A stretch of DNA of 28,806 nucleotides, from assembly GCA_027579435.1 (NCBI GenBank), contig JANBPK010001133.1, positions 1 to 28,806 on the forward strand, read 5' to 3'. The position numbers and the translations under genes were made by a program. Source of the DNA: Candolleomyces eurysporus. Its lineage: Eukaryota; Basidiomycota; Agaricomycetes; Agaricales; Psathyrellaceae. This document shows positions 2,650-27,014 of the stretch, one piece after another. The notes under the pieces are model-generated. The model had not been told where the DNA came from. It saw nothing but the letters and a program-made list of their open reading frames with translations, and did no database searches. Positions within the stretch are counted from its first letter, which is position 1, and each line of letters starts with the position of its first letter.

Positions 2650-3067
2650 TTCTCAGGGTCAGTATGACTACATCAATATCAGCATTATGTGCTGTATGAA
2701 AAAAAAATAAATTTTGTGTTGGCATTGACGAGCGGGGCATGGTTCTGTGAGAACACTGTTACAGTCATTTGTATAATAATTTGCAGTCGCTGAGCAGAAA
2801 ATGTGATGCCATGACGCATAATGTCATGGCTCAGCTACCCATAATAGACTGGTTGACGAGCATTTCAACCGGCGCATCCAAATTTGGTGGCATGACTTAG
2901 TCTGTTGTTAACTTGATTCCTTGGAACAGTCGGTGATTTTCAACATCACGTGCACGACCAAACAAACGCGACATGCTCATTTATCGCGGCGTTTTAGATA
3001 GCCGGCGACCCCTATTCCCTCCTATCCATGTCTCGTTTGTCGTCAAAGCGGATGATATTGTGTTGGG
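2650..3067. other. Intergenic, no gene seen
   Basis: AT-rich sequence with a short A-run at about 2700. I see no open frame, tRNA or repeat. It ends just before the helicase relic and may contain its old promoter. Confidence 0.5.
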
Positions 3068-4777
3068 ATGGCGCAAAAAATGATAAAATTTATTGACACT
3101 ACCTCTATCTTGTCCCCGATATCTCTCTTAAGCCTGGGTATGAGTGCTCCAGAACATGGAGTATGGACCTCTGAGCGAGGGCGGCACCAAGTCCAACGAA
3201 TCTTGCAGCAAAGCGAACCCCCTATCAAGCCTCACGACTATCAGACTGAAGGGATCTGTAGATCACTGGATGGGCAGGATATTCTCGTCACAATGGCTAC
3301 AGGATCTGGGAAGACAGGCTTCTTTAGTATGACTATGAAAGTCATTCTGGCAGTTTCAATGAATCCAGAACTTGCCATGGAGGGGTCAACTCCATTTCCC
3401 CGAAATCCTGCAATGCTCATTGTACTACCCACCAAAGCACTACAGGAAGATATGGCAAGTCTATTCTGCTTTCTGTGATACTGTTCTCTGAAGCTCAAGT
3501 CCGATTAGAAGAAATCTATGCTCAAACTTGGTCTGGATGTCATTGTCATTAATTCAGATACATGCTCAGCTGCCCGCAAATCAAAATGAAACTTGTGGAC
3601 GGAATGCCAGCAACAGCATTCCATCATTCTCATCTCGCCCGAGGAAATGCAAAGCCAGGAATTCCATCACCTTATCAACAATGAACACTTTGTCACTTGT
3701 ATTTGCCGTTTCAGAGTTGATGAAGTTCATTTGGTATACATCTGGGGTCTCAGTTTTCGAGATTCATTTCTTCAAATCGGCCAAATGCGTGCACAGCTTC
3801 CATCAGTGAATCAATGGAACGTACCACTTATTGCAGCCTCAGCAACCATTCGGGACAGACCACCAAAAGATACAATCTGCAAGACTTTAGGTTTGGAGGA
3901 AGCGCAGTATCATTTATTGCGTCGTTCTAATCGGTGTAGGGATCTTCAAATTCTCCTGTGCCCCATGAAGTCATCAACTACAAGCTTTACCTTCCTGGAC
4001 CTTGACTGGACACTTCAGGAGTACAATACAACCGTTGTCTTCTGCAAGACAATCTCTCTTAGCTTCCGCGTTGCAGCCTATTTATGGCACCTTGCACTAA
4101 GCAGAGATCTCAAGGATGTTGCCAAATGTATTTGGATGTTCAACTCGCTCAATTCAGCCTCATTCAACATCGATACATTCAAGTTCATCGAAGAACCCAA
4201 GAGCGCATCAATCATTATTGCAACAGATGTGCTAAGCGTGGGTTGGGATGGACAGACTACACGCAACGCGGTAGTCTATGGGGAACCAAATGATATTGAT
4301 GACTTTGTCCAGAAGATTGGCTGTGCAGGCCAAAATCAAGCATTGGTCAATTCGCTACAGGGGATTCTTTACTACTCAAAAAAGGCTCTCACATCAGCAG
4401 CGTCACCAAAAGACAAGCAAACCCTGGATTCCAGCATTTCTCAGTTTCTCTTGGCAGGTGCAAACCGAAAAATCTTGNATGAGCAGTACAAAAATCCAGA
4501 AGCAGATGAAGAGTACAAATGCACACAATGCATCGAGCAGCCTCAGATTGCAAAGCCTGATGCTTGCAGCTGTAGTGGATGCCAGCCAGAGGTCCGTGTT
4601 GAGGAACCCAAACCACAGGAGGCAAGTAGCCTGGAGCCAAGGCAGCGAGCAAGACCAGGGAAGGGTATTTTGAAAAACATGCGAGCTCATGCAGCATGCA
4701 TATTTGCAAAGCTTTGCCAGAAGTTGTACATACTCGGATCAGCACCTTTGATACGCCATATCTCTACCTTCCGGTGA
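3068..4777 (+). pseudogene. RecQ-like DEAD/DEAH superfamily 2 helicase, decayed
   Basis: Exon 1 is 3068-3454 and exon 2 starts at 3509. The 54-nt intron between them uses a GC donor (GCAAGT..TTAG). Visible SF2 motifs: YQTEG before MATGSGKT (Walker A, motif I), IVLPTKALQEDM (Ia), VDEVH (DExH box, motif II), AASAT (III), VVFCKT (IV) and IIIATDVLSVGWDG (V). Motif VI should read like QxxGRxGR but is QKIGCAGQ, so both arginines are lost. An in-frame TGA lies at 3587-3589. The C-terminal part has clustered cysteines (CTQC, CSCSGC). RecQ-type helicases unwind DNA 3'-5', and fungi carry many dispersed, sometimes telomere-linked, copies. With the stop and the lost arginine finger, this copy is very unlikely to work. 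Confidence 0.85.
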
Positions 4778-7970: not shown

Positions 7971-8655
7971 GCGACATAGATGAATTGGCCCGACACATTC
8001 TGTACCAGTGTTTGAATGGATTCTTCCGAAGGCCACGATGAAGGGAGGCCGTATCAACGACGAAGTTGATTGAACTGGGCCTCCAGGAAGAGGGCGATGT
8101 CGCCGTCGGCGTTGTACTTTTCATGCAAATCGAGTTTTTCAGCAAAGGGGATAGGACTGTTTTCGGGGTCGAAAATTTCGGGAAATACGCGCTCGGGATG
8201 GCTGGCGATAATGATAAAGAAAGGAAAGGATGGATCGGACGATGCAGCTCAAAGAACTTGGAGGATCTCCAACTGGTCTTCAGCGTTCTTTCGAGCAAGT
8301 CTGCACCGCGGACCGACGCTTGCGGTATCGTGGTATTGCTCAGCCTTGCATTCATCCAGACCGTCAATGATGATGGCACCCTGCAACCCGGGTCTGTCAG
8401 TTTGACGTACGACCTTGTGTAATGGGGTTAAAACAAGAATTTCCATTTGTATGTGGATATTCTTGTCGAACATGTCTGGGTTCTTTCCGATAGCAGTGGA
8501 AATGGCGCTTTGCAAATCCTCTCGGTGCTGGGCCAGCTGGTGTGCAATGGTTGTGACAAACGCGGTCTTCCGACGCCAGCCAATGGACGCTGACCAGGAT
8601 GCAAAGAAGAACGTCGCGCCCAAAATACCATTTGCCGCGCTGATACGACCGCATT
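7971..8655 (-). pseudogene. NACHT NTPase fragment, decayed and truncated at both ends
   Basis: Read on the minus strand, one frame gives GATFFFASWSAS, TTIAHQLAQHREDLQ and GAIIIDGLDEC. The last is a NACHT Walker B motif (four hydrophobics then DGLDEC). FPEIF, KLDLHEKYNADGDIALFLEA and GLPSSWPSEESIQTLVQN follow. The Walker A loop should lie upstream but the LTR at 8656 cuts the gene just before it; the other side ends at the tandem repeat. Two in-frame TGA codons (8250-8248 and 8056-8054) sit where CGA is plausible. NACHT proteins of fungi act in heterokaryon incompatibility and immune-like responses. This copy cannot encode a working ATPase. Confidence 0.85.
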
Positions 8656-9777
8656 TGTTTTAGCGAATATAAGTTCAATTTTCGCGATAATAAACTATAA
8701 GGTTGACGCGGTCTGAGTCTCTAAGTACAAGAATGACTACGCTATCGATAAGGATCACGCGGCTTGAGAAGGAAAAGAGTTAGAACTATGACTCTAGGGA
8801 CACGAGAGTTGAAGCTACTCGAGGCTGTCAACTTGAAGCCGTCCCAGTTGTATTATACCCTGACCAGAGAAGCTACTCTAGTCGACACCGTGCTAAAAGT
8901 CAGGCGGCTCGACTGAAGCGGCTTCAGAAAAGTCATATACCTTTACAATGCAACTGTCAGGACTCTCAGGCGGCACTACCAGAGAAGTTCAGAAATCAGG
9001 CGGCTTCATATTAATTGAGTACAAGTGCTGGAGCGGCTTGAGGAAACCTTTGAAACGACGAAGTTCATGGCTGGTGGCGCGGCTGGGTGGCTGTGATAAA
9101 CTCTGACGTGGCGCGAGGAACTGAAGCGGCTCGAGTCCTGAGTCAAGGGAATGACCAGACCGACCGTTGGCATCGGGGAAAAAGGTGCAGGTGATGCCGG
9201 GCGAGGCAACCGTACCTGTCCAAAGCGGCTTGAGACTAGCAACGAGAGTAGGGGACGCAGAGCAAGGATGCCCGTCCCACTCTCAATCATCAGTCGGCAT
9301 CTCACGCGGCTTCACCAGAAAGGAAATGGTGATCTAAATTTGGCGTCCCAGAGGCGCGCCTGACTCGCGTGGCTACAATCTTGGCGCAGCCTCTACCAAT
9401 ACCTGGTTCTATTTTCTCTTTATCTTTTGCTTGGACTCTTATTAGTGGCTATAACTTGTCTATCACATGTGTCTTTTTATCTATTTTTATGCGGCTCGGA
9501 GTAGTATATATACATGCTAACTACTGGCTCGAGTGGCATCATCGTATCATTGTTGTTTTATCTTTACTTGCGTTTATCGACGAATCATTGAGCTTTTCTG
9601 CTTATATTTTACACGGCGNGAACTATCGGTTGCATTGGAACTTAGGAACTTAAGCAGTCATAAGGAGTGACTACTGAAGAATAGGGACCTTACTAGCAGT
9701 ACACTAGGGTACTTCTAGTTCTGTGGAGTGTATCTACGAGAGAACTTGAGAACTCAGTATTCTTAATTCACTCAACA
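8656..9777 (-). mobile_element. 1.1-kb LTR of a retrotransposon (3' LTR, minus orientation)
   Basis: On the minus strand it starts TGTTGAGTG and ends AAAACA, giving matching TGTT..AACA termini. Immediately upstream on that strand is a purine-rich stretch, GTTTGTGGGGGT (9778-9789), placed as a polypurine tract would be before a 3' LTR. Its far end abuts the NACHT relic, so it inserted into that gene. It contains a recurrent GCGGCTTGAG motif. No second LTR is in the window. The copia-like assignment rests only on the TGTTGA start and purine tract. Confidence 0.6.
8757..9500 (+). repeat. Dispersed GCGGCTYGA motif cluster
   Basis: The core GCGGCT, usually followed by TGAG, CGA or TCA, occurs near 8758, 8904, 8918, 9000, 9033, 9078, 9126, 9225, 9306 and 9491, with a near match GCGGCACT at 8970, all in one orientation. 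Spacing is irregular. The cluster lies inside the LTR, where repeated promoter-factor sites would be plausible. Confidence 0.7.
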
Positions 9778-13002: not shown

Positions 13003-14215
13003 TTTCTATGTGTTTAATTGTGATAGATAGATATATACTTGTATTGTAGATCAGAGGACCGTCAAACGTCGGGACAGAGTAATACGCACCGCAATTGCCG
13101 GCTGCAGGCAAACTTGCCAACCATTTGCAGCCCAGATACTACTTTACACTTCCACATCTTGGGTGCAAGCTGGCTTGCCTCAAGTGACTCGTATCTGAAC
13201 GCTACCTTCTATAATACAGCCCTTCGAAAGCTCTTGAGTATGATACGATGCAGCATCCCGTTTATGAAGTCCTAGTGCTAGTGAAGATCAAGATGCAGAT
13301 TACTGACCTTATGCAGCCAGTGGCCGCCAGAGACGTAGGTTCCCAAAGTCATGTCAGTCTTTCTTCACTTCCTTTGGATTTTGTACTCATCTGTGACCGT
13401 ACAGTCGTGTCGCGCGCTTTTCGATGTCATCACGTCTGGATCTCACCTTTTCGTTGGGTCTGTCACTGAGACGATGGGCATCCCTAAGCTGAAGCATGCA
13501 TGCTTAAGCCCATACCGGTGGTGTATGTAGGAAGCTGGGAAGCTTCCACGATTCACGTTCCTCCTTGTTCAGCTCCGACTCAGCCTTGAAACCTATATCG
13601 ATTTGCCATTTGCCAGCGATCGTCCACAATTGTCTCTCTCTTCCTCGTACCAGGAGGAAGATTTCTTTTCTTTGGGGACAGAACAACTGTCAAGCTATGA
13701 GGGCTTGGTGCGGTGGGACAGCAAGCCGTGTCTCCACTCATTATCGCATCTGTTACGATCGACTGAGGTCACTTCAAAGGAAGTTATGCGCGGGTGTTCG
13801 GTATCGTCTCGATGCAGACGGTCGACTGGGGCCATCAAAGTGACTTCGCTCGCTACCTATGCCTTACCGCTTCCGATGACACGGTACATCCCTCACACCT
13901 ATGCCAGCGGGAACAGTGCTAGGCCCAGCTTCTACTGCGGGTCTCTTGTGATGGTTGTGCCACACGCACAACGTCATTTTCAGTGTTTCACGTCCGAATG
14001 AAGAGTCCCACACAGCAGAGTTGCTACTCCCCATTTTGCGTCAATCGCCTCTTCTCTTCCAAAGGGATCAAGTATATTACGGACTATTTATCCATCCTGT
14101 CGAGCTGGTCGTATACAGTTAGTCGTTACGGTTGAATGTAGCACTACTAGAAGTCTGACGCCTTCCTCTCAAATTTGGGCGGATGATACGCCCGTTGAGA
14201 TCTCTCCTCGACCCC
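13003..14215. other. No confident gene
   Basis: Several overlapping frames of 60-130 codons exist on the plus strand (for example 13603-14001) but show no domain, helix pattern or convincing splice sites. A 23-bp word at 13791-13813 recurs at 18222-18244. The minus strand near 13300-13360 has a short stretch GTYVSGGHWLHK that I could not place in a gene. Confidence 0.4.
13791..13813 (+). repeat. 23-bp exact repeat, copy 1
   Basis: Identical to 18222-18244 (begins CGGGTGTTCGG, ends TCTCGAT). The second copy sits at the left edge of dispersed repeat R2 copy 2, so this may be a fragment of the same element. Confidence 0.75.
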
Positions 14216-15311
14216 TCAGGAGGGGGGGGAAACAATACGACGAAGCAGCGAGGCCAATAAAGTTCCAATAGCACGAGATTTGGGAAAGACCCCGCCTTCC
14301 CCGAGCGTGTATCTGCTCAACTCCCGCTCGCTCGCAAATACCGTTATTTCTTCGTCATCTGGAAGGGTTGTAAGATCAACCAAGTTTACATGAGTGTTGA
14401 ACACGGCCTGTAGGGTCATCCGTTAGACTTCCAGTCAGTATCAGAGTAAGGTAGCTTACCTCTCGCGCCTGTTCCAGTTCGTCTGGGACAGGCGTGATTC
14501 CGATCCTCACACATAGCTTTTGCCACGCATGTAAATCATTGACGTCGCTTCCGAACCTCTCCTCGAACTGGAAAGCCATGGCAGAGGAAAATTGCTGCCA
14601 TGCATCCTCCCGCTCTGGGTCACCTGGCCGCCATTGCATCTGGCGACTGAGACGACCAAATTCTTGTCGAGGCTTCACCCATGGGCGATAAACGAAACCT
14701 TCGTATTGCGCGAAGAACTCTTGAACAGGTTCACCCGGGATCGGCTCTGAATCTGCCTCCAGGGCTGCGACTTCTTCGACTTGTGCCTCTTCCCCGACGG
14801 CCTCAGTGATGAAGGCACCGGTTGGCTCAAGTAGAATGGGGGTTTCGTCCTTGGCCTTCTTCTGCCAATAGAAAGAAGGATAAACGTTTACCGTCAGCGG
14901 CTATATTCATGGGCCGAGGAGTTCAAGCCCAACCCACCTTGTTCTTCGTACCATCGTTCCTCCGCCCAGTCCGAGTCCGAGTCCGAGTCTTCTGTTGTTT
15001 GGCTTCTTTCGCGCTAGCATTCGCATCCTTCTGAATGGCTGGGGCGACAGTCTCCTCAGTCAAAGTGGCATCGTCCGGGAGCTCTTCGATGTNAAGCGCT
15101 ACTGGGGNTTTCCNTGTACGACTGCCCCCCCCCGCAGCTTGCTTTTGCTTCTGAGAATTTAGATTTGTGAATAGTATTCTCTAGTCATAGCCAAATCACT
15201 GACCCTCATTCTTTCCTTCCTCATCTTCCACCACCAGCCAGGCCTTCTCGGGCGACCAGATCCAGCCCTGGCAGGAGAGCCATTGGTAGCGACAACAGCG
15301 GCCGTCGACAT
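14216..15311 (-). CDS. Conserved fungal protein of unknown function, 304 aa, 4 exons
   Basis: Exons on the minus strand are 15311-15204, 15150-14938, 14861-14460 and 14407-14216; introns are 53, 76 and 52 nt, all GT-AG and in phase. The N-terminus is basic with a run of tryptophans (PGWWWK). The middle is charged, with IEELPDD and a TRTRTRTGRR stretch. The C-terminal half is the conserved part: EFFAQYEGFVYRPW, WRPGDPEREDAWQQF, LHAWQKLCVRIGITPVPDEL, VNLVDLTTLPDDEE and a final GTLLASLLRRI. I know this pattern from Agaricomycete hypothetical proteins but not its role. A decayed inverted duplicate, including the promoter, lies at 18789-19000 plus 25508-26094. The low-quality patch at 15093-15133 (three N and a C9 run) makes residues about 40-55 unsure, yet the frame holds. 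Confidence 0.82.
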
Positions 15312-15517
15312 GATGGGCGCTAATCGATAACGCGGACTGAACCGTGGAAGGAACGTTGCTATTCAAGATGATAGATAGAAGGTATGAAAGTTAGCCACGG
15401 AGAAATAGCGTCGTAGGCTGTCCTCGTATCCAGAATGCGACTGGCACCCGACTGTAGGTATTGGGGGAACCGATCTCACACTGGCCACGGGGAAAGCATG
15501 TATTGGGGTTGAAGTGT

Positions 15518-15526
15518 CTTTATATA
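15518..15526 (-). promoter_or_regulatory. TATA box of the 14216-15311 gene
   Basis: TATATAAAG on the minus strand about 210 bp before the ATG. The same element is conserved in the duplicate promoter at 18828-18837, which supports it being functional sequence. Confidence 0.55.
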
Positions 15527-15570
15527 CGTTGGCAGGAAGGCTTGACACGAGGCCTTTTGTTTGTGCCATA

Positions 15571-16245
15571 ATCGTACTGAATAGGCTACCCATGGGTCAT
15601 GGGAGATGCAACGAGGACGGAAGAAGCCATCGAAGGTTCTCTTTGGAACTAAAGTGGCTTAGGGTGGGTGGTCATGGGATGGTGAGATAGGCGCCTGTGA
15701 TTACGATTCAAACTTTACCTTGGGACCAATATACGAGGGTAATGCTGGGTTCTGTTTTCATATTCTTATCACTGTGAGTGGGAAGGAAGAGCTTCTACAG
15801 TCAGAGATACGAATCTCGAGGTTCAGAGGCGGTTGAGCCCTCTTCACGAACTTGAATCGGGACATTGGGCGAACACAATCAATGATAATCAATCTCTGTG
15901 CCCACTGTGGGTGTCTGATGTACTGCACAGTACGGAACCCGTGTTTTCCTCGGCAGCTGCTGAAACATTGTTGGCTCATGTAATCAGCATAGCTGTTGAA
16001 AGCTGTTGAGGGCGCGCTGAGGTCATATGGTTGCTGCACCTTTTCCCGTGAACACCGCCCAATCCAGCTGATCTTTGCGACTGATTACGGTCATCGTAAT
16101 GCAGATACGTGCGATATCGAAGATACCGGGTTTCACCTAGAACGGGAGTTGATTCCGACAATCCTGATGAGAAGTGTTTACCGGGGTTTATCATGGAAAA
16201 TGGGGATTTATGAGCCCAGCAGAGCGGTAGTTAGTAGCGTACCTG
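15571..16245 (+). repeat. Dispersed repeat R2, copy 1
   Basis: Aligns along its length with 18241-18788 at moderate identity. Shared words in order include TACTGAAT..GGCTACCC, TGCAACGAGG, CACTGTGGGTGTC, CCGTGAACACCG, GACAATCCTGATGAG and AGCCC.GC.GAGCGGTA. No frame stays open in both copies, so it is probably a non-coding transposon relic. Confidence 0.7.
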
Positions 16246-18221
16246 TAACGTCTATCAATGATGACTCGAAGATGACCAAAACAGTACCACATCCAGGTGC
16301 CTCAGGCAGCTGATGATCAGCTATGTTTGGCCAGACCCTTGCCAGACCCACGATTCATGCCTGTGAAACTATTCAGCTCCTCCTGTGTTATGGGTGCCGC
16401 CCGTATAGGTGCTTGACTGCTTTCAGAGACTTAGGCCACTGAGTCGAGCCAACTCTCCGCGGCTGATCCAAAAAACCGTTTCTCAACGCCGATCAAAAGG
16501 CCAGGAGCGTGACCTTACGTTGAGGGCTTCGACGCGTTTTCTGCTGTTTGTCAGCCGTTCATCGGAGAGGTTTGTTCATGAAAAAATGGCTCACGCAAAC
16601 TGTGTTGGTATCCACGAGCTTGCCCGGGCCTCGATCATCAGCAGCTTCGGCCCAAGCTCGGTGGGGCCCTGGTGTTGCATCTGTTCCCGCCGTTTATTGT
16701 GCAGCTACTTTCGCAAGGGGAGCAACGTCGCCAACAATAACGACCGCAGCTGGTGGATGCCGGAAGAGTTGGGAGGGGATTTCAGAGATCGGAGGATGTC
16801 CTCGATGGCCAGCGTCAGTCCTTCCGGCCAAGGACTGGTGGAGTAGCCTGAGGTAGAGGCGGAGGAGGTAGTGGGAATGAGGGCCTCGAAGCAGAAGAAC
16901 TAGGAACGGATCCGAGACTTCAAACGCAGATGCTGGCTCAGAATTCGAGCACTTGATCTCTCTGCCCACGAATCCCGTCATATCACGTTCGATTTTGCCT
17001 TCATCATTGGACTCTTCATCTTCGAATCAGTCTCCCCAGCTGCAACGTGGCAAAAACAAGAGTTAACAATGTTGGCGTATCTGGGCCTACCGTCGTCCGG
17101 TTGTATGACCTTCCGCTCCTAGAGTTCCATTACTACCACCACGGAGGTAGCACCGCTAGCTTGGAATGAGCGTCGTCGTCTTCGTCGACTGGTGATATTC
17201 TGGATGACGGTGGTGTGATCGGGAACGACCAATTAATCGCTCACTCGAGACAACATGGGATCGCAGTAGTGGTATGAATGACGAGATGGGGAGCAGCTAG
17301 CGGACCTTCGCGCCAGCAGGCGTTGGATTTGGCTGCTACGTCTACTGTGCGGTATCAGCCACCCAGCGAGGTGGTATCGGTTTTATCGATATTTGGAGAG
17401 GTCTTATCGAGCATGTCTCAGCAACCCTTGCGGCCATCACCTCAGCAGCAGCAGAGAGACAGGTATAGGAGTGTGTATCGGTGGCGATTTTTCTTTCTTT
17501 CTTTTTATTGCTCATATTATTCGTCTGCTCTCATCACTCATCGATTCGTATCGTTCTGCAAGGCTATTTTCCTTTTCCCTTCATCGTCTATTTACCTTAC
17601 TATCCGCGCAGCTTTGTGCCACCCTTTTCCATCTCTCTCGATCAATTAATTGGTCGTGTGGTCCGGTTCATTCGTTCGTTCATCGCAATCTTCCAGAATC
17701 GTAATTCCCTCAGACACTCAACAAACCACACTGTGGTTTTTGTACTAGGGGGCACGATGTGGTATGTTGTTCCCTTTTTTCGACCTTGAGTTGACTCATC
17801 CAGGGATATAGTAAAGTGTGGCGGCTCCCTCCCCTCGAAAAGCTCCCATCCGGATTCCCCATTCCTTCTTCGGCTCTTCATATGCAGCCTCCCAGCTCTT
17901 TGGAGGACACACTTCAGATCCAACTCCCGTTCCTGCCACGGAGTAAACGGTACATATTTTTGCTGCATACCTATCGCTCTCAACCTGTATGAAGTGGCCG
18001 ATGCTTCGCACGGCAAGTGCCGAGGCATTTTTGACTGGAACCAGCGGAAAATAGCGGCCGGAGTGATGGCTGCACATGCCGGAAGCACCGTCTTGGACCA
18101 CATCGACCCCCCGTAGTACCCGAGTCAAAAATGCCTTGGAACCTTGCAGGTGTAAAGCTCACTCATGGGTATTTCGACTGCGTAAATTTCGCACAAGAAA
18201 CCTCAGAAGCAACCAGATGCT
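16246..18221. other. No confident gene; one unassigned minus-strand frame
   Basis: 16409-16856 (+) and 16694-16981 (-) are open but featureless. 17480-17700 is strongly pyrimidine-rich on the plus strand (TTTCTTTCTTTCTTTTTATT), as in fungal promoters or introns. 17796-18128 (-) is an open frame of 110 codons reading GVDVVQDGASGMCSHHSGRY near its start, without a domain I recognise. A (T)CGT-rich trinucleotide patch lies at about 17170-17190. Confidence 0.35.
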
Positions 18222-18244
18222 CGGGTGTTCGGTATCGTCTCGAT
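18222..18244 (+). repeat. 23-bp exact repeat, copy 2
   Basis: Identical to 13791-13813 and directly joined to the start of R2 copy 2. Confidence 0.75.
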
Positions 18245-18788
18245 ACTGAATTGGCTACCCGCTGATCATGAGAGCTGCAACGAGGCCGGCAAAGTCGTCC
18301 AAGATTCTCCTTGGGACCTAGGGCATGCCGTATGGTTATGGGATCGTGAGATAAGCGCCCGCGATTCAAACTCGATCTCGGGACTAAATTCGTGAACATG
18401 AGGGCAAATCTCACCTATTTTCTCATATTTATGTCAACGTGAATGGAACGGGAGAGAACACCCACGGTCAGAGGAATCTCGAGGCTCGCAAGCGGTTGAG
18501 TCGTGTTCGCAGTGTTGGACGACCTCCGTGGCTCACTGTGGGTGTCGCACTGCACACTAGGGAACCAGTGAATTCTTCGACAGTTGCTCAAACGTTGCGC
18601 ACTTTTTCCGTGAACACCGTCCAATCCACTGGAAACTGGTCCGGCTGGTTAACGCAGTGCGACATGATGTGATTCCGAAGATGCAGGGGATTCTCCCTCA
18701 GAGCGAGAATTAGTTGCGACTCGGACAATCCTGATGAGCGGTATGTGTGGGGTTTATCGACATGCATACAGCCCGGCGGAGCGGTAAA
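18241..18788 (+). repeat. Dispersed repeat R2, copy 2
   Basis: Diverged partner of 15571-16245 in the same orientation. It ends at GCGGAGCGGTAAA, directly upstream of the duplicated promoter segment that starts at 18789. Confidence 0.7.
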
Positions 18789-19000
18789 GTGCACACAAAA
18801 GGCCTCATGTCAAACCCTAGCACCAATGTATATAAGGTGCTTCAAATATCCGGGCTTTTCCCGTGGCCAGTGTGAGCCCCATACCCACAATTGGGTGCTA
18901 GTCACATTCTGGGGACGAGTGCAGGACGACACTACTTGCCTTGCACGCTGATCCTTCATACCTCCTATTTGTCTCAAATAGCAACGCTACTTGCATCATA
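18789..19000 (+). promoter_or_regulatory. Duplicated promoter of the decayed gene copy, cut off by the transposon
   Basis: Matches, in opposite orientation, the upstream region of the 14216-15311 gene (about 15325-15567). Shared words include CACAAAAGGCC, CCGTGGCCAGTGTGAG, TTCATACCT and AATAGCAACG. A TATA box (GTATATAAGG) is at 18828-18837. The segment stops exactly at the transposon's target duplication, and its continuation is at 25508. Confidence 0.75.
18994..19000. repeat. Target-site duplication, left (CATCATA)
   Basis: Seven bases identical to 25501-25507, directly next to the left terminal inverted repeat. Confidence 0.88.
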
Positions 19001-19025
19001 CTCAGTAAAAATGCAAAGTCACGCT
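19001..19025 (+). repeat. Terminal inverted repeat, left
   Basis: Pairs with the reverse complement of 25476-25500. Differences are at positions 12, 13 and 22 of 25. It contains the outermost GTCA site at 19018. Confidence 0.88.
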
Positions 19026-19094
19026 CAGTCATCCATTGGTCACTCACCTGAGGAGTCCCAGTCATGATGTAGTCAACAGGTCTCATCATAGTCA
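19018..19094 (-). promoter_or_regulatory. Left subterminal array of GTCA motifs at ~11-bp spacing
   Basis: GTCA (reverse complement of TGAC) occurs at 19018, 19028, 19039, 19061, 19072 and 19091, that is, at steps of 10, 11, 22, 11 and 19. The orientation mirrors the right-end array. Likely a cooperative binding platform for a transposon-encoded protein; this is inference. Confidence 0.7.
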
Positions 19095-19201
19095 CCATCT
19101 CCTGATATTCAGTGATTGCATCGATTCCATCAATGACAACGAGGCTCGCTAAATGACTTTGTACAAATGTAGCACGAACACATTGTCCTCTACTTACTGT
19201 G

Positions 19202-22200
19202 TTAATCTGAATCAAAATATAACCCTGAATCCTCGTCTCCAGACTCGTCCACATCACTCTCACTATGATCTTCTAAGTCCTGTTTCTGACCCAGTTCCTC
19301 CGGCGTTAGCAAAGAGAGACCAGGGTGCTTTCTGAGAATATACACCCGAGGTTTGGAGGGCGGATTCCAGATGCCCACAACATCCCGAATCCAAGATACA
19401 GAGATTGCACGAACCCTTGACCCCCAAACTCCTCGAGTATAGAGACCCAATGGTTCGCTTCTTTGCTCAAGTGGGGTGTAGACAACATAGCACCGTTTTC
19501 TTCCTCCAATCTTGATTTCATAGAATGAGGCAGCCTCCCCAAAAATGAGATTTGTGCTGAGTTTTCGGCTTTCTGTATTGTCAATGGAAATGTTCTCAGC
19601 CTGATAGGATATGGTTTTAGAAAGAATTGGGCAATTCAAGAGGGTTAAATACGCACTTCAAACCACCGGTACTGTCGGGAAATTGCAGAACCTTCACCAA
19701 GTGCACTCCTGAGAACTCTCTTGTTGGGAAGTTTGAGCTTTCCCCATCGTTGAACAATGGCATTTGCAACAAAATCAGAGGTTGTTAAAGAGCCCCCAGC
19801 TTGGTCGTGCTCCAGACATTCGGCTAGTGCGTTGATATGTGTCTGAAGTTCTTTCCATGCCTTTTTGGTCCAGGTGTGCTTTTGCATGCAACGATATGAA
19901 TTATTGGTCAGTGTATGTGGAAGGGTGGCATTGTTGCTGCTCTCTGAATGCAAGGAGGGAAAATGAAGGAGGAGGATGCGGATAAGCTCACGCTCATAGA
20001 TCTGATTTGCAAGATTTNGCAAATGGGGATTTTTTGGACCTGATTCGATGAGCCATTTCCCTGATCTTTCGCTCAACTGTTGCTTGAGATCCAACACGAA
20101 TTGAGCCATTCCATTTTATGTGTCGAGGGATGTGGACCAGCTGAAAGATACAAAGACGCATCCGGTTGATATTTGCAGGCTTGTTGTCCACATAGAGTTG
20201 CTCGTACTGGCAAAGGAAATTGTTAACTTTATTCTGTAGGTGTCTCAGGTCTTCCTCAGTGCGAGGAATAGGAGTCATTGCAAATTCTACAATGGCAACA
20301 AACTGGGCAAAATTTTGAAGGACCAGAGTATTGAGCCCTATCTCAATGCCAATTGGAATGATGTACCAATGTAGGACAGCCATCCATTCAAAAACCTTGT
20401 ACTGGCTGTTTCGCTTTGTTTGAGGATTGCGAATTGGCCCAGAGAGGGATGGAGGAAGGGTTTTATTTGCACTCTCAATAAGCTCACCAAGTTTGGCAAG
20501 CTTTGAGTGTGGGACATAGATTAGCTCTCCATCACAAGATGAAACCCAAGTGTCCCAGATAAATGTCATGCAGTTCTCATAGAACAGGTGAAATGGGTCA
20601 ATTGGGAAGAAGACAGGGTGAAGGAAAGTGGGGCTTGTGGCACAGAGTGGTAGTCGAGATATGCCTGTTCTTCGCACAATCTTTGCCCGTACTGTTGGAT
20701 TCTTGGCAGAGTCCAGCATGATAATTGTTTTCCAGTAGTCAGTTTCTCTTCGAATAGGAATATTGTCAAGATTGACAAGTGGGCGGCCTGGATTCAAGGT
20801 TTTTGCTTCATTCTCTGGTGGATTGATTGGATAATATTGTGCCTTTGTTCCAGGCAATGCCCGAGCTCCTTTGACCGTGGAGAAGCGATCACCATAGACT
20901 GCTGTATGTCCTGCCATCCCACTGATTTTTGCAGACCCAAGCATGTCACCAAGCCCCATGCAACAGTAAAAATGGCACAGAAAATATCCCTGTGTAACAT
21001 TGTCCCAGAGCCATACTCCTTCCTTTCCACAAGCCAGCTCTTCAAACATGGGATACAGAAAGGTTTCAATATCAACAGGAGAGTGAGGTCCTGGGATTGA
21101 AAGGTTAATGATCACATTCTGGGCTTTATACCGGATTTCAGGTGGGAGGTTCAGCAGCACAATGATGAGCAACCAACAGTTGGATTGCTTTTTCATTGTC
21201 AGTTGTGCACCATCAGTTGAAATGGCAAAGGCTATGTCCCGTTCATCTTGAAATAACCCATTCTCTTCATAGTGGATTTGATGAATGAGTCCACCTGCAT
21301 AATCTGAGAATTTTCTTCCAGGAGCACTGTCCTTGCTGTGCTTTAAAGCCTCCTTCAACTGCTCGCTACGGTAGCGCAGCTGTTGAGCTGACTCAGAAGA
21401 GCTATACATTGCACGAAGTGATGGTGTGATTGGGAGATACTGATACTGGGCCCTTGGTTTAGGTTTTCCAGTCTTTGTAAACCTAAAACGTGGCTGCTTG
21501 CATTCTGGGCAGAATAGCATATCTGCATAGCTGCCAGTATAGGCGACACAGCTCTTGGGGCACATGTCTATTTTTTGGGGCATGAATGAGACCAAGCGTG
21601 AAGCTAGCGCTCGAACTTGATGAAGTGAGAGGATTTTTGAGTGTGTTGCTTGTCCTAAGACCTGTGCATGTTTCTTGTAAGCCTTGACAGTGCCGTTTGA
21701 CTCCGACCATGCAATATAATGTTGGAGCGAAAGCACATTGACTTTGGATAAGTCATTAATTTGAGTCTCCAATTTGGCACTCAATGGGGGAACCGGAGGG
21801 GGAGAGTAACCGTTGCGGAGCTTATCTTGGAGTTGAGTCAGGCTCTGAGGAATTGTAATGTTGGGAGGGATCGAGAGCTCGCTCTCTTCAATAGTTGGAT
21901 CAACCATGGTATCTTCAATGAGGTCTGAATCGTCGCCTGCAGCTGGGCTCTGTCCATCATCGGCACCAATATTTGGAACAGACTCGGAGATCACAGAAAA
22001 TCCAGAATTGCTACTGTCACTCAACTCGCATTCACTATCACTTGATCCAGCCGGATCTTGGTATAATGATGCTTGAGCCTCCTGGAGAAGATCTCCTTCC
22101 ACACTGTTGCCCATTGGGCCAATGGATGGGGTTGGATTGAATTCCTCAGTGGGAAGACTAGGATTGGCATAAGAGGGGGCTACCACAAAGTTATCAGTTT

Positions 22201-22451
22201 ATCAGTACATGCAGATAACAGTGGCTTTGTCATGGGGCTTGACCTTGTTGATTTTCTCCATCTTGAGACAACTCTGGTTGATTCAAATTAATAAATCTCT
22301 CGAGCAAGCTACACAAGCGATGGTTCTGCTGCAGCTGAGCCTGCTGAAGCGCCGTAACATCTGCATCAAGATGCTCTTTGATTGTGCGCCGAGAGTGGAA
22401 GGATTTCCCTGGGAAGCATATAGAGCACCGACACTTGAAGTTGCCAGGCAT
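19202..22451 (-). CDS. Tnp2-like transposase, about 1,042 aa, 3 exons
   Basis: Exons are 22451-22244, 22179-19657 and 19600-19202; introns are 64 and 56 nt, GT-AG. Dropping the single N at 20018 makes phases exact from start to stop; with it the frame shifts at SKKSPF. Residues 5-30 hold a Cys/His cluster (CRCSIC..H). An acidic Ser-rich linker follows, then MCPKSCVAYTGSYADMLFCP (about residue 272), a zinc-binding motif usual in fungal Tnp2 proteins. The core has ISTDGAQL (about residue 392, likely first catalytic Asp), NLPPEIRYKAQNVIINLSIP and a long C-terminal region ending in acidic repeats (SESDVDESGDEDSG). It would cut and join the element's ends in the nucleus. It shares a promoter with the plus-strand gene. 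I cannot point to the other catalytic residues with certainty. Confidence 0.88.
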
Positions 22452-22622
22452 AACAAAAACAAAACCTGCTCAAGAGTGAGCGGAAGGGAGGTAGAGGCAA
22501 GATCTAAGCATGGAGATACTTGCAGGAGATATCAGACAGGCACGATCACATGATGGCATGGGTAGTACTATAGGCCAATTCAAGCAACGACTGTACGACG
22601 TAGCACAGAGAACACAGCAAAC
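22452..22622. promoter_or_regulatory. 171-bp divergent promoter of the transposon genes
   Basis: The two start codons face away from each other across only 171 bp, so one bidirectional promoter must serve both transposase and accessory gene. I see no strong TATA box; ACTATAGG at about 22568 is a weak candidate for the plus-strand gene. Confidence 0.65.
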
Positions 22623-25116
22623 ATGTATTCTGACGACGAATATCCACAACAACATCAACCAGCAATGCTATACCATGACAGTCCATGCATACCTAACCAC
22701 TACGCATTCCAGGACAAGGATCCCCGAGCATCTCTGAGCCCGCCACCACAACAACAATATTTCCCCAGCCCCACAGCTCAAATCGAGCGTCTGTCCCTGA
22801 GCCAGCTCTTGCAAAATCCCCATGTTCTCGACCTGCATGAGAAGGTGATGAGGTGCACCACAATCCAACTCCAGCATCACGAAGAAATGCAGGCACTCAG
22901 ACGAGAGCTCACTGCATTGAAGGAAGAGAACGCGCAGCTGCGGAACTTTCGGTGAGCAACTCACAGCTTGAATAGCATTCAGCAAACTTACCTGTATCCT
23001 TTTAGAAGACAAAGCACCATCCACCAGCGCGGAACGTCCGTATCCACCAGCCTGTCCTCGGTTTCTCCAATGGATTCAGCCTCCCAGGTCCATGCACCCG
23101 ATGATGACCCCGACATCAGCCTCTATTTTCAGAAGGGTTCGATAGCCTGCCCAAAAGGGCTGGACCCAAAGAAAGTGATCTGGTCCCTTGAAGACGCCCG
23201 AGCTGATCCTCTAATTGGAATGAGGAGCGCAAACCCCGGTCGTCCCAACATGCAAAAGGCAATCCGGAAACTCGATGGATCCTGCCTGACAGACTCAGAG
23301 TACCGTGCTATCCTTAGCATGGGAAAAGATGTCATCCAAACGCACCTGGAGCCGCTTGCTGTACCACAGGCATGGCGTAACAAGACAAGAGGGAAGCGGT
23401 ACTACAGCGAGGTACATCCACTTGCTTGGAGAAAGGCCGTAAACGACATGGATAGTCGGGAGAGGTTACTGAGGGTGTGCGCAGGCAGCTGGAAGTCTGA
23501 GCACGTCCTCTCGAGGCTGCTTCGGCCAAGCGAGTCATCGTCGCAAGGTGAACCTGAGGCCGAGATTGTGGAAACTGGTGGCGCTGCCACACCAACGCCA
23601 ACACCATCAATAGCAGCAGCGAAAGATAAGCGCAAGCGGGCAGAGTCGAGTTCTGCAAAAAAANGCGAAGAAACGAAGCAAGCAAGCTAGAGATGCAATG
23701 GAGGGAGGGGGGAAAGACAAGGATGAAAGTGCGTAAACAACGGTCGTCAACGTTCCAAATTAATCACATGCTCACCACACGCACAGACTCACCACTGCCA
23801 TCAGGAAGCCTGCCTTCGAACAATCAAGGCTCGTCTCCAACAGCAACCAGCTCTGGTGCTCAGTCATCGTTGGCAGCCAAGGCCACTGCAATCCATAGCC
23901 GCATCTCCCAATTGGGAGGATCAGAGCCAGCTCCAAGTACAACCCTGCAGGCTGGAGCAGATAATGCTTGTGCAGCTCCGAGTCGGCCTCCCAGCCCACC
24001 CCGGTCCGTCTCGGGCAACTCAACTCCCACCATGGGAGACCCTATTGACATCAGCTTCATTGAAGTGGGTAACTCAGGTGAGCATACATTCGTATCCGTC
24101 AAAGAAGGGGATGTTGATTCATCTGCATAGTTTCCGATATTCGCAGTACGTCCACTCTGTTTGCAATGCTCGGTCTGGTCGCTAATGCTGTTTAGGTGAA
24201 ACAATAACCATCAAATCCCTTCCAGAGTGTACTAATTTGCTCCTCCGAGCGTTCGAAGTGGAAGAGGATCAGAATCCAATCGATCCAAGTGATGTGGTCC
24301 GGCAATTACTAACTCGTCTTCAGGGAGCGGACCCTAACGATCCCAGCCTTTCGCCGGACAACAACAACTCAAACTTCGGGCACTGGCACTTCACTGCAGG
24401 CAGTATCACGATTTCAACCGCCCTCGATCGCTGGGAGTCAGTCGGTTCTGTTGCTTTTGCTTGCCAGCTCATTGCTGCAGCCTTGAGAATTGTGAAGATC
24501 GCTCGCCATGTCTGCTTCAATCGCAATGTTGCCCGTGACAACTTGATCTCTGAGGTTTATATCGGAATCCTCTTTGAGAAACTTTGGAAAATATGGGAGA
24601 ATTCCCATCCTCAGGTGAGTGTTATTCAGTATGGACTGCATTCAGGCTCCCGATCTCACCCCATTTTAGTCCTCTACTTCAACGACGCCGGACCAGGATA
24701 TCCTTCGGAAGCAACTCCAGGTTTGGGTTCAAATTTCTTGGAATTCTATCTCTCTTACCTCTCTTTATGCCACAGACGATCCGGAAGGACCAGCTCCAGG
24801 CATGGGCAAAAGAACACAGCATTCCAATCGTAAATGAAAACCAGAAAGAGTGCAACAAAGATAGCAAGTTTTATATTCCACCCTGATGCTCGGATACTGA
24901 TCAGTTTACTGCAGCCTTGATAACCAATATATTGATGCTTGCGAGCAAGGACGCACTCACCAGCGAAGCCATTGCTCAGATGAAGGCCAGTACAGTCTCT
25001 ATGCGAAAGGTATGTCGATTTCCCTCCGTTGTGAAGTCCGTATCTCCTGCTGATAGCAACAGACACGACCGCAGCGCAAGACGCAACAACCAAATGAGAA
25101 TGGGCAGTCGGTTTGA
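22623..25116 (+). CDS. Transposon accessory protein: leucine zipper, basic NLS, SAP-like C-terminus; about 682 aa, 8 exons
   Basis: Exons: 22623-22951, 23006-23728, 23787-24077, 24196-24614, 24670-24720, 24776-24863, 24915-25009, 25063-25116. Phases agree throughout if the N at 23664 is ignored. Intron 6 uses a GC donor (GCAAGT); the rest are GT-AG. Order of parts: Gln/Pro-rich start; coiled coil about 75-110 (MQALRRELTALKEENAQLR, bZIP-like heptads); a conserved-looking block with PKGLDPKKVIWSLEDARADP; a basic stretch where the N lies (KKAKKRSKQAR, about 327-337); a Ser/Pro-rich linker; a block with VVRQLLTRLQGADPNDPSL and NFGHWHFTAGS; and a SAP-like helix pair (DQLQAWAKEHSIPIV .. TLITNILML). 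By analogy with plant TnpA it may bind the subterminal TGAC arrays. I have no domain assignment for the central blocks. Confidence 0.8.
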
Positions 25117-25185
25117 ACGTTACGCAGTGGTAATCTTGGCTTGAATTACATTATCTAGTCTAGTGGTGTATCCATTGATATTTAG

Positions 25186-25483
25186 TGACTACAATGTGAC
25201 TATTTCTTGACTGAGCCCCAAGGTTTCGGTGACTGATCTCGTGAATAGAGAACGACTGTAGGGAGACTCTGAAAGTGACCCTGACGTGACCATGAGTTGA
25301 CTTGATGCGACTCGGGCTTGACTCTTTCGTTCCAAGTCATCCAGATTTATTGTGACAATGTGTTGACTAACTGACAGCATGTCGGTGTCAGGCCCAAGTC
25401 TCGCAAATGCGCGAAATCCGACATTTAGTCACGACTGACATTTTGTCTACGTTCGAATGACTACTCGGCAACATAAGCCTGAC
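25186..25483 (+). promoter_or_regulatory. Right subterminal array: 15 TGAC motifs, mostly 11 bp apart
   Basis: TGAC at 25186, 25197, 25208, 25230, 25276, 25282, 25287, 25298, 25319, 25353, 25364, 25372, 25436, 25458 and 25480. One-mismatch copies fill gaps at 25253 (CGAC), 25264 (AGAC) and 25308 (CGAC). Steps of 11 or 22 bp dominate, so the sites face the same side of the helix. Roughly one TGAC would be expected by chance in 300 bp. It contains no open frame that would explain the pattern. Confidence 0.88.
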
Positions 25484-25500
25484 TTTGTGTTTTTACTGAG
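25476..25500 (-). repeat. Terminal inverted repeat, right
   Basis: Reverse complement begins CTCAGTAAAAACACAAAGTC, matching the left end at 22 of 25 positions. The outermost TGAC (25480) lies inside it. Confidence 0.88.
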
Positions 25501-25507
25501 CATCATA
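25501..25507. repeat. Target-site duplication, right (CATCATA)
   Basis: Identical to 18994-19000 and directly after the right inverted repeat. Confidence 0.88.
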
Positions 25508-26094
25508 CGTTATCGATTGGCACCCCATGTCACCGACACCTCCCGTTACTGCCAATCCCACTCCTCACGTGGGTGGGTCGGATCATCCAAAACGACATGG
25601 CTGGTAATAGAAGAAGAGGAGGGAGACATGAAGGTCAATGATTCCTAACGAGCATCACTGGGATGTCCTGCTCAAGTGTTCACCGATCTAAAAANTTCTC
25701 AGAAGCAGAGGCAAGCTGCCGAAGATGCGCAAGGGGTCCAGGAGATTCCGACTAGTGGCACATACATCGAGGAGCTTCCGTATGAGGCTACCGTGACTGA
25801 AGCTAGCGACTGCTGCTCCAGTCATTCAAGAGAATTCAGATGCCAGTTCCGTAGGCGCGAAGAAAAAGAAGAAGCAAGCGAAGGAGGGGTGGGAAGAACA
25901 AAGTGAATTGGATTAAACTTCCTGGCCCATGAAAGGAATCGCTGACGACAATTTACCATTGGTGTCGTACTGGCAGAAGAACGTCGAGGGAGAGCATGAA
26001 GCTACCGAACGGGCTGCGCCTCTGGAACCGGAGCTAAAGACGATGCCCGAAGGGCCTGTCAAAGATTTTTTCGCGCAGTACGAAGGATTCATTT
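25508..26094 (+). pseudogene. Decayed inverted duplicate of the 14216-15311 gene
   Basis: The 5' UTR word GTTATCGATT and the ATG (25527) match the intact gene. The exon 1 counterpart (25527-25633) is one base short and has TAA TAG where the intact copy has two tryptophan codons. The intron 1 counterpart is 25634-25702 and ends TTCTCAG. The exon 2 counterpart keeps AAGCAGAGGCAAGC, IEELP and an Ala/Lys-rich stretch in shifted frames. The exon 3 counterpart keeps GPVKDFFAQYEGF, after which the match stops at about 26094, where R2-like sequence begins. The conserved C-terminal half is missing. The promoter lies on the far side of the transposon at 18789-19000. Confidence 0.8.
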
Positions 26095-26155
26095 TGACGA
26101 GTGGTATGTATGGGGTTTATACAGCCCAGCAAAGCAGTAGCTAGTGGCGTACTGG
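26095..26155 (+). repeat. Dispersed repeat R2, short fragment
   Basis: Matches the right end of R2 copies 1 and 2 (GGTATGT.TGGGGTTTAT, then CAGCCCAGCAAAGCAGTAG). It interrupts the decayed gene duplicate right after its EGF codons. Confidence 0.65.
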
Positions 26156-27014
26156 GCGTAACTCGTGACGCCCCGATTCGTCTCTTAGCGCCGATAAAAA
26201 AAAACAGAAATAATGGCTGGACTGAGCATAGCACGCAAGAGAGACGAGAGTCGACGAAAAGAAAGTATTCCTTTTCGCAGACCAGAGAAGGGACGCGTTG
26301 TTTGGTCGCCTCGGATGACCAAACAAGCGGACCGGCGGATCGTTGGTGCTCATGGCGGAATCGCGTGACGTCACGGATGTGATTTGGACGCGTAGGGTGC
26401 CTAGCGCCCTGGCTTGATAGACAAGGTGAGCAATTATGCTTTTGGTCAGCCATTCAAATATTCACCAGACAGGCTTTTAATCAGAAAATAGCTTACGGAA
26501 CTTGAAATCGTAATTCACGAGCTGCCTCGATCACCGGCTGAGCAGGGCGTGTATTTGGTGGGGCCGAAGATGGTGCTTCTGAAACAGGTTCACCAATTAC
26601 ACGAAATGTTGCAGAGAAAGACCCTTTAGATAGGTAATGCGCCAATCAAGCATCTTAAAATGTACCACAGATAGGAAATGTCCGAATGTGTCGGCGATTG
26701 CGTCCTCCGAGTCGGGAGACCAGCATCTGAATATCCCGACTTCCATTGAGTTTATCAGAGGAAACTATGTCTATCGTGAAGGCTTACTGAGCCCACCCCA
26801 GAATGGTATCAAGTGAGACGTCAACGTGCGTCATGTTCGAGGTTCATCTGTTCTCCTGAGCTTGTCTTACTGACGAGACAACACTACCAAACCGACTCAG
26901 AATACTATTTAAGTTGTTCGAATGCGAATTGTCCCCTTTGCTCTTGCCTCATTTCAAGATTCGACGAAGAACAGCACCCCCTCCTCCCTCAAAGTCTGTT
27001 ATATTTGCGCTGTC
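26156..27014. other. No confident gene; possible minus-strand exon at 26493-26650
   Basis: A minus-strand frame ending at TAA (26495-26493) reads SATFRVIGEPVSEAPSSAPP and then REL before stopping. Its composition looks coding but I cannot place upstream exons or name a family. 26156-26400 is featureless apart from an A-run at 26197. The last 200 bp should hold the promoter of the MARVEL-like gene. Confidence 0.3.

Follow-up and report, generated by a model that had tools for sequence, protein, structure and literature searches.

A probable Tnp2-class, RAG1-fold DNA transposon with CTCAGT ends and a 7-bp target-site duplication in Candolleomyces eurysporus

In this work, we describe a 6,500-bp transposon of Candolleomyces eurysporus located on contig JANBPK010001133.1, of which a stretch of 28,806 nucleotides (the window) was analysed. 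The element is bounded by inverted repeats, is flanked on both sides by the heptamer CATCATA and contains two divergent spliced genes, one of them encoding a Tnp2-like transposase (Table 1). An earlier note on the same DNA had listed these features, together with non-CACTA ends and a repeat length of 25 bp, and our examination bears all of them out. The first 25 bases of the left end agree with the first 25 of the right end at 22 positions, and both ends read CTCAGT. They start with CTCAGTAAAAA, which is present at just two places in the window, 19001 (+) and 25500 (-), against a mean of 0.01 in shuffled sequence, where none of 100 shuffles contained two. The CATCATA match across the flanks is perfect and exactly 7 bp long, the inverted ends terminate exactly at the heptamer, and a chance origin of this duplication is very unlikely. 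Inward NGTCA repeats are in strong excess on the left (210 bases) and on the right (400 bases) over the expectations from 2,000 mononucleotide shuffles per region.

The 5' ends of the two genes face each other, and the exon borders of both were taken from the sequence and the open frames alone; all introns are of the GT-AG type. The main open reading frame (ORF) of the transposase gene matches the Pfam domain Transposase_21 (tnp2) with an E value of 3.2e-13 and 49.8 bits (cut-off 28.6); residue numbers of the transposase are those of the ORF 22198-19994. For the second gene, a Pfam scan of the ORFs in exons 2 and 4 gave no domain, a single-sequence model of exon 2 reached a pLDDT of 39, and no homologues were found at an E value of 0.001 with either the whole protein or residues 145-290; one relative of 36% identity is present in the genome, on contig C1053. 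Each gene contains a single undetermined base at which the frame shifts (N at 20018 in the transposase gene, N at 23664 in the second gene), so in this assembly either gene may or may not be intact, which qualifies the earlier description of the element as complete. The single undetermined bases at window positions 20018, 23664 and 25695 adjoin homopolymer runs, and the first two lie inside element genes.

Table 1. Coordinates of the element, its ends and its genes in the window
Feature	Position	Strand	Basis or remark
Transposon	19001-25500		6,500 bp; inverted ends and flanking CATCATA
Left target-site duplication copy, CATCATA	18994-19000	.	read from sequence
Right target-site duplication copy, CATCATA	25501-25507	.	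read from sequence
Left terminal inverted repeat, CTCAGTAAAAATGCAAAGTCACGCT	19001-19025	+	22/25 identity to right repeat
Right terminal inverted repeat, CTCAGTAAAAACACAAAGTCAGGCT	25476-25500	-	sister-element end CTCAGTAAAAACGGAAAGTCA nearly identical
Left subterminal region, inward NGTCA repeats	19001-19210	+	6 vs 0.76 in shuffles
Right subterminal region, inward NGTCA repeats	25101-25500	-	15 vs 1.49 in shuffles
Transposase gene	19202-22451	-	three exons; both introns GT-AG
Transposase exon 1, Cys/His-rich N-terminus	22244-22451	-	open frame, GT-AG intron
Transposase exon 2, catalytic core	19657-22179	-	Pfam Transposase_21; alignment column counts
Transposase exon 3, C-terminus	19202-19600	-	open frame, GT-AG intron
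D329	21212-21214	-	transposase exon 2
D418	20945-20947	-	transposase exon 2
D437, at first Cys position of CxxC	20888-20890	-	transposase exon 2
E709	20072-20074	-	transposase exon 2
Second gene	22623-24886	+	six exons, ~640 codons; five introns, all GT-AG
Second-gene exons	22623-22951, 23006-23728, 23787-24077, 24196-24614, 24670-24720, 24776-24886	+	

The predicted structure model of the transposase matches RAG1, which cleaves antibody genes in vertebrates, as well as ProtoRAG and Transib, at about 10% identity, and a RAG1/Transib fold is thus predicted. Residues D329, D418 and E709 would form the active site; the corresponding D, D and E columns are retained in the transposase clade (121 proteins examined). 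In the same clade the HxxxH motif preceding the glutamate is kept (H689 in 119 and H693 in 118 proteins), and the two CxxC positions are occupied by D in 120 and by S or T in 119 proteins. The other aligned Tnp2-like proteins of the genome have both cysteines (12 of 12). Such a D..S/T pair in place of CxxC would alter the zinc-binding part of the insertion domain. A catalytic Glu region at H537/E541 was considered and dropped, as HxxxH..E at 689-709 better fits the RAG1 order. The homologues number 212; the three named relatives are from Agaricomycetes, and P0073, P0110 and P0112 are proteins of Panaeolus cyanescens, Coprinellus aureogranulatus and Athelia sp. TMB. Scans of the viral_contigs and genome_contigs collections for DNA of relatives found none.

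In an unrooted tree built from the Tnp2-like proteins of this genome, the CTCAGT clade stands apart from the CACTA-ended and CCCAGT-ended groups with support of 100/99, the three groups sitting on long stems whose branching order the tree leaves unresolved. The distinct lineage proposed in the earlier note is in this way supported by a separate clade and by the 7-bp duplication, the placement being one among the Tnp2-like proteins of the same genome.

Searching the 65.85-Mb assembly (1,296 contigs) with the main transposase ORF gave at least 48 matches, among which only one, on contig C1125, is close (49% amino acid identity). This sister transposase is followed by CTCAGTAAAAACGGAAAGTCA, so that a like end accompanies a like transposase, and the 400 bases next to the sister end contain 8 NGTCA repeats where 1.55 are expected. 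Genome-wide, a 21-base end pattern allowing one mismatch was found only at the two ends in the window and on C1125, and 100 bases of the left edge gave no further copy of the element. The left end of the sister, the only other CTCAGT-ended Tnp2 element found in the genome, turned up neither in C1125 11700-27777 nor in C1053 8020-13100, so its duplication could not be counted. A repeat of 1.17 kb, which has TG..CA-like ends and is 89.6% identical between C1053 (L065, 8020-11661) and C1125:22344-23516, adjoins the second-gene relative on the former and the sister transposase on the latter, with the same five outer bases, GGATG in the C1125 orientation. A single retrotransposon insertion may therefore have split the sister element over two contigs. 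A retrotransposon, Copia-like by eye, occupies C1125:13940-22118 (L062, L063), with a 2,024-codon frame and 429-bp terminal repeats that are 96.5% identical.

Because the element is single copy, the 7-bp claim was tested on relatives in the same genome, within which all ends and duplications were counted. CCCAGTGAAA ends are carried by a group of Tnp2-like genes at a greater distance. Breakpoints where homologous copies diverge give CCCAGTGAAAAATC as the start of the L013/L014 family, and L006 and L025 have CCCAGTGAAA ends as well (for all four, the term Tnp2-like reflects similarity to the window protein). CYCAGT ends adjoin Tnp2-like genes at six loci (the window, C1125, C395, C1038, C562 and C1105). 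The right end of the C1038 CCCAGT element was looked for and not found. A first scan of loci with 1.5-kb flanks for inverted repeats and duplications gave nothing convincing, and pair searches with real ends were used instead. Eight facing CCCAGT pairs were collected, seven by the CCCAGTGAAAAATC search (six within 1.5 kb, and C989 over 11.4 kb) and C1105 in addition. Perfect 7-bp duplications flank four of them (C373 CGTCAAC, C1226 AGTGACC, C254 GGTTAGG, C1105 GTTGATG), which with CATCATA of the window makes 5 of 9 CYCAGT pairs; flanks swapped among eight CYCAGT elements match over 4 bp at most (56 combinations). The element at C1105 contains an ORF fragment matching the window transposase at 31%, the C254 end has about 30 bases in common with L013/L014, and the only link of C373 and C1226 to that group is 14-15 end bases. 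The six pairs with facing CCCAGTGAAAAATC ends and a length of 1.0-1.4 kb (L084-L095, on C373, C1226, C1038, C1142, C991 and C254; 7 bp perfect in three) have the appearance of non-autonomous elements derived from a transposon with CCCAGT ends. Six single CCCAGT ends had no clear partner, one of which (C989) was later paired at 11.4 kb without a duplication. Sites resembling CTCAGTAAAA near Tnp2 fragments at C112 and C1099 were judged by eye to be due to chance. Duplications of 7 bp are accordingly not confined to the family of the window element.

Other Tnp2 families of the genome have CACTA or CACTG ends and served as a control. As read from the breakpoints of homologous copies, the ends of the L003/L005 and L010/L011 families are CACTATGG and CACTGTAG. 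Among seven facing CACTA pairs, 3-bp duplications flank four (C1218 GCT, C252 CTC, C1137 ACT, C513 GAG), none is longer, and C58, C1279 and C1225 have no duplication; swapped flanks match over 3 bp at most in 42 combinations. The check on duplication length thus gave 7 bp in 4 of 8 CCCAGT pairs versus 3 bp in 4 of 7 CACTA pairs.

The left flank of the element is repeated elsewhere in the genome. Among the paralogues of this flank, the nearest uninterrupted one (C1153:78044, 78-79% identical) can be aligned with window positions 18792-19001 and resumes at 25508, which fixes the edges of the insertion at 19000-19001 and 25508; the alignments with C1153:83974, C372 and window 15032-15563, at about 70-73% identity, are less exact.

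The CMCT lineages, according to PMC12730594, have mostly CA..TG termini and duplications of 2-5 bp, together with the motifs C(2)C and H(3-4)H. The window element shares with them H(3-4)H and, in the predicted model, the RAG1/Transib-like fold with D, D, E; it departs from them in C(2)C and in its 7 bp, the length also found at half of the CCCAGT-ended pairs. Fold and domain accordingly assign it to the CMCT class, and the ends, the duplication length and the CxxC loss set it apart within this class. With CACTA/EnSpm elements it has in common the Transposase_21 domain and inverted ends, as well as inward subterminal repeats and a second gene beside the transposase, both of them CACTA traits; it differs in having CTCAGT and neither CACTA nor CAC..GTG ends, 7 bp and not 3 (2-3 bp in the group), and D..[S/T] for CxxC. 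Transib, ProtoRAG and RAG1 are characterised by 5-bp duplications and CAC heptamer ends, neither of which is seen here, and the window transposase, about 10% identical to theirs, is without CxxC. Plavaka A (TGT..ACA, 2 bp) and Plavaka B (CATCA..TGATG, 2-3 bp) are likewise fungal CMCT elements of Agaricomycotina (PMC12730594), unlike which the window element has CTCAGT..ACTGAG and 7 bp. PMC8290104, whose supplement characterises KDZ and Plavaka ends, uses the pfam18759 domain as a Plavaka criterion; no Plavaka Pfam match to the window protein was obtained at an E value of 0.1, the inclusion of pfam18759 in the Pfam set used being unconfirmed. SmTRC1-like animal elements also carry Transposase_21, and the Aedes end CCCAGTCAAC resembles the CCCAGT group, but their duplications are of 2 bp (PMC1636069). 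A 7-bp duplication in Agaricomycetes is known for Kyakuja (KDZ), which has a transposase of another class and CA..TG termini without inverted repeats (PMC12730594). In the open-access literature, as far as its texts were accessible, our search found no Tnp2 elements combining CTCAGT or CCCAGT ends with 7-bp duplications; PMC9674265 and PMC3411680 had no bearing on the matter.

We therefore read the window element as a Tnp2-class, RAG1-fold DNA transposon with CTCAGT ends and 7-bp staggered insertion, and consider this reading to be well founded, if short of certain. Duplication length reflects the spacing of the cuts made by two transposase subunits and is used as a superfamily hallmark. The transposase would probably excise the element at the CTCAGT ends and join it to target DNA whose strands are cut 7 bp apart, giving rise to the CATCATA duplication; the transposase, perhaps with the second-gene product, may bind the ends and the NGTCA repeats. 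It is likely that CYCAGT ends and 7-bp staggered cuts mark one distinct branch, or perhaps two, among the cut-and-paste transposons of the RAG1-fold CMCT class. That Agaricomycetes carry a RAG1-fold branch of superfamily rank with these ends and 7 bp, one widespread clade of which lost the CxxC common to EnSpm, Plavaka, Transib and RAG1, is a more tentative proposal, for which the balance is close to even but slightly unfavourable.

Several observations weigh against these conclusions. Only one complete CTCAGT-ended copy was found in the genome, and for the exact family the 7-bp count is a single case. The four paralogues carry 6-7 other bases (CA-TCCG, CAGTCCG, CAGTCTG) at the place of the second CATCATA, so they do not prove the duplication, and one has to suppose either that bases next to the insertion were deleted or that the repeat is fortuitous. 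No 7-bp repeat flanks 4 of the 9 CYCAGT pairs (3 bp at C1038, none at C1142, C991 and C989, although the C989 ends, 11.4 kb apart and with unlike inner bases, may not belong to one element). No transposase was seen inside C373 and C1226, and the CCCAGT-ended L006, L013 and L014 fall below the Transposase_21 cut-off, L025 being without a Pfam hit. The CACTA control is small: Tnp2 genes are present only in C58, C1218 and C1279, with 3 bp in one of the three, and C252, C513 and C1225 share flanks and hence represent one event, which leaves 3 bp in three of five independent events.

An ordinary CACTA/EnSpm element with misread boundaries, a true duplication of 2-3 bp and a fortuitous 7-bp match could look similar in a single-copy family, all the more so as CATCATACATC is also present in the nearest uninterrupted paralogue, and some of the second heptamer may thus be of older date. 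This is very improbable, since the inverted ends stop exactly at the heptamer, the same paralogue places the edges where the ends do, the sister has the same end, exactly 7 bp recurs in half of the other CYCAGT pairs, and the genome's own CACTA-ended families differ in appearance and make no more than 3 bp. The ends could also belong to another superfamily with 7-8 bp duplications (Kyakuja, hAT7 or P-like) in which the Tnp2 genes are captured passengers; the available part of PMC12730594 gives 7 bp for Kyakuja and hAT7 and not for Tnp2 types. CYCAGT ends adjoin Tnp2-like genes at six loci, the Kyakuja termini are of a different kind, and no hAT-type Pfam match was found among the element ORFs scanned, which leaves this explanation with little credit.

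A weightier alternative accepts real 7-bp Tnp2 elements and holds that the CTCAGT clade and the CCCAGT group reached this length independently. The three long-stemmed groups of the unrooted tree permit it, and the CCCAGT group makes 7 bp yet keeps CxxC, which speaks against a direct link from CxxC loss to 7-bp spacing; the likeness of the ends, CTCAGT-AAAAAT and CCCAGTGAAAAAT, argues for one lineage. We regard independent origins as doubtful, though with a substantial chance of being right.

If the reading as a Tnp2-class element with 7-bp staggered insertion is correct, 7 bp would occur in a RAG1-fold group for which 2-5 bp is the published range, with 3-bp CACTA elements of the same genome as an internal control, and the determinant of cut spacing in RAG1-type enzymes would be open to direct comparison. 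It would also mean that a zinc site which Transib, RAG1 and CACTA have in common is open to remodelling, and would provide a classification rule for many fungal Tnp2 elements now named only hypothetical proteins.

The host locus itself (window 13848-19001 and 25508-26931) is a patchwork of segments that recur, reordered and reoriented, at C1153 and partly at C372. Farther away, window 3056-4777 (+) contains two ORFs that match DEAD and, below the cut-off, Helicase_C and are RecQ-like by impression, and an ORF at 8249-8659 (-) that matches NPHP3_N and, weakly, NACHT may be a fragment of an NLR-like gene of fungal type.
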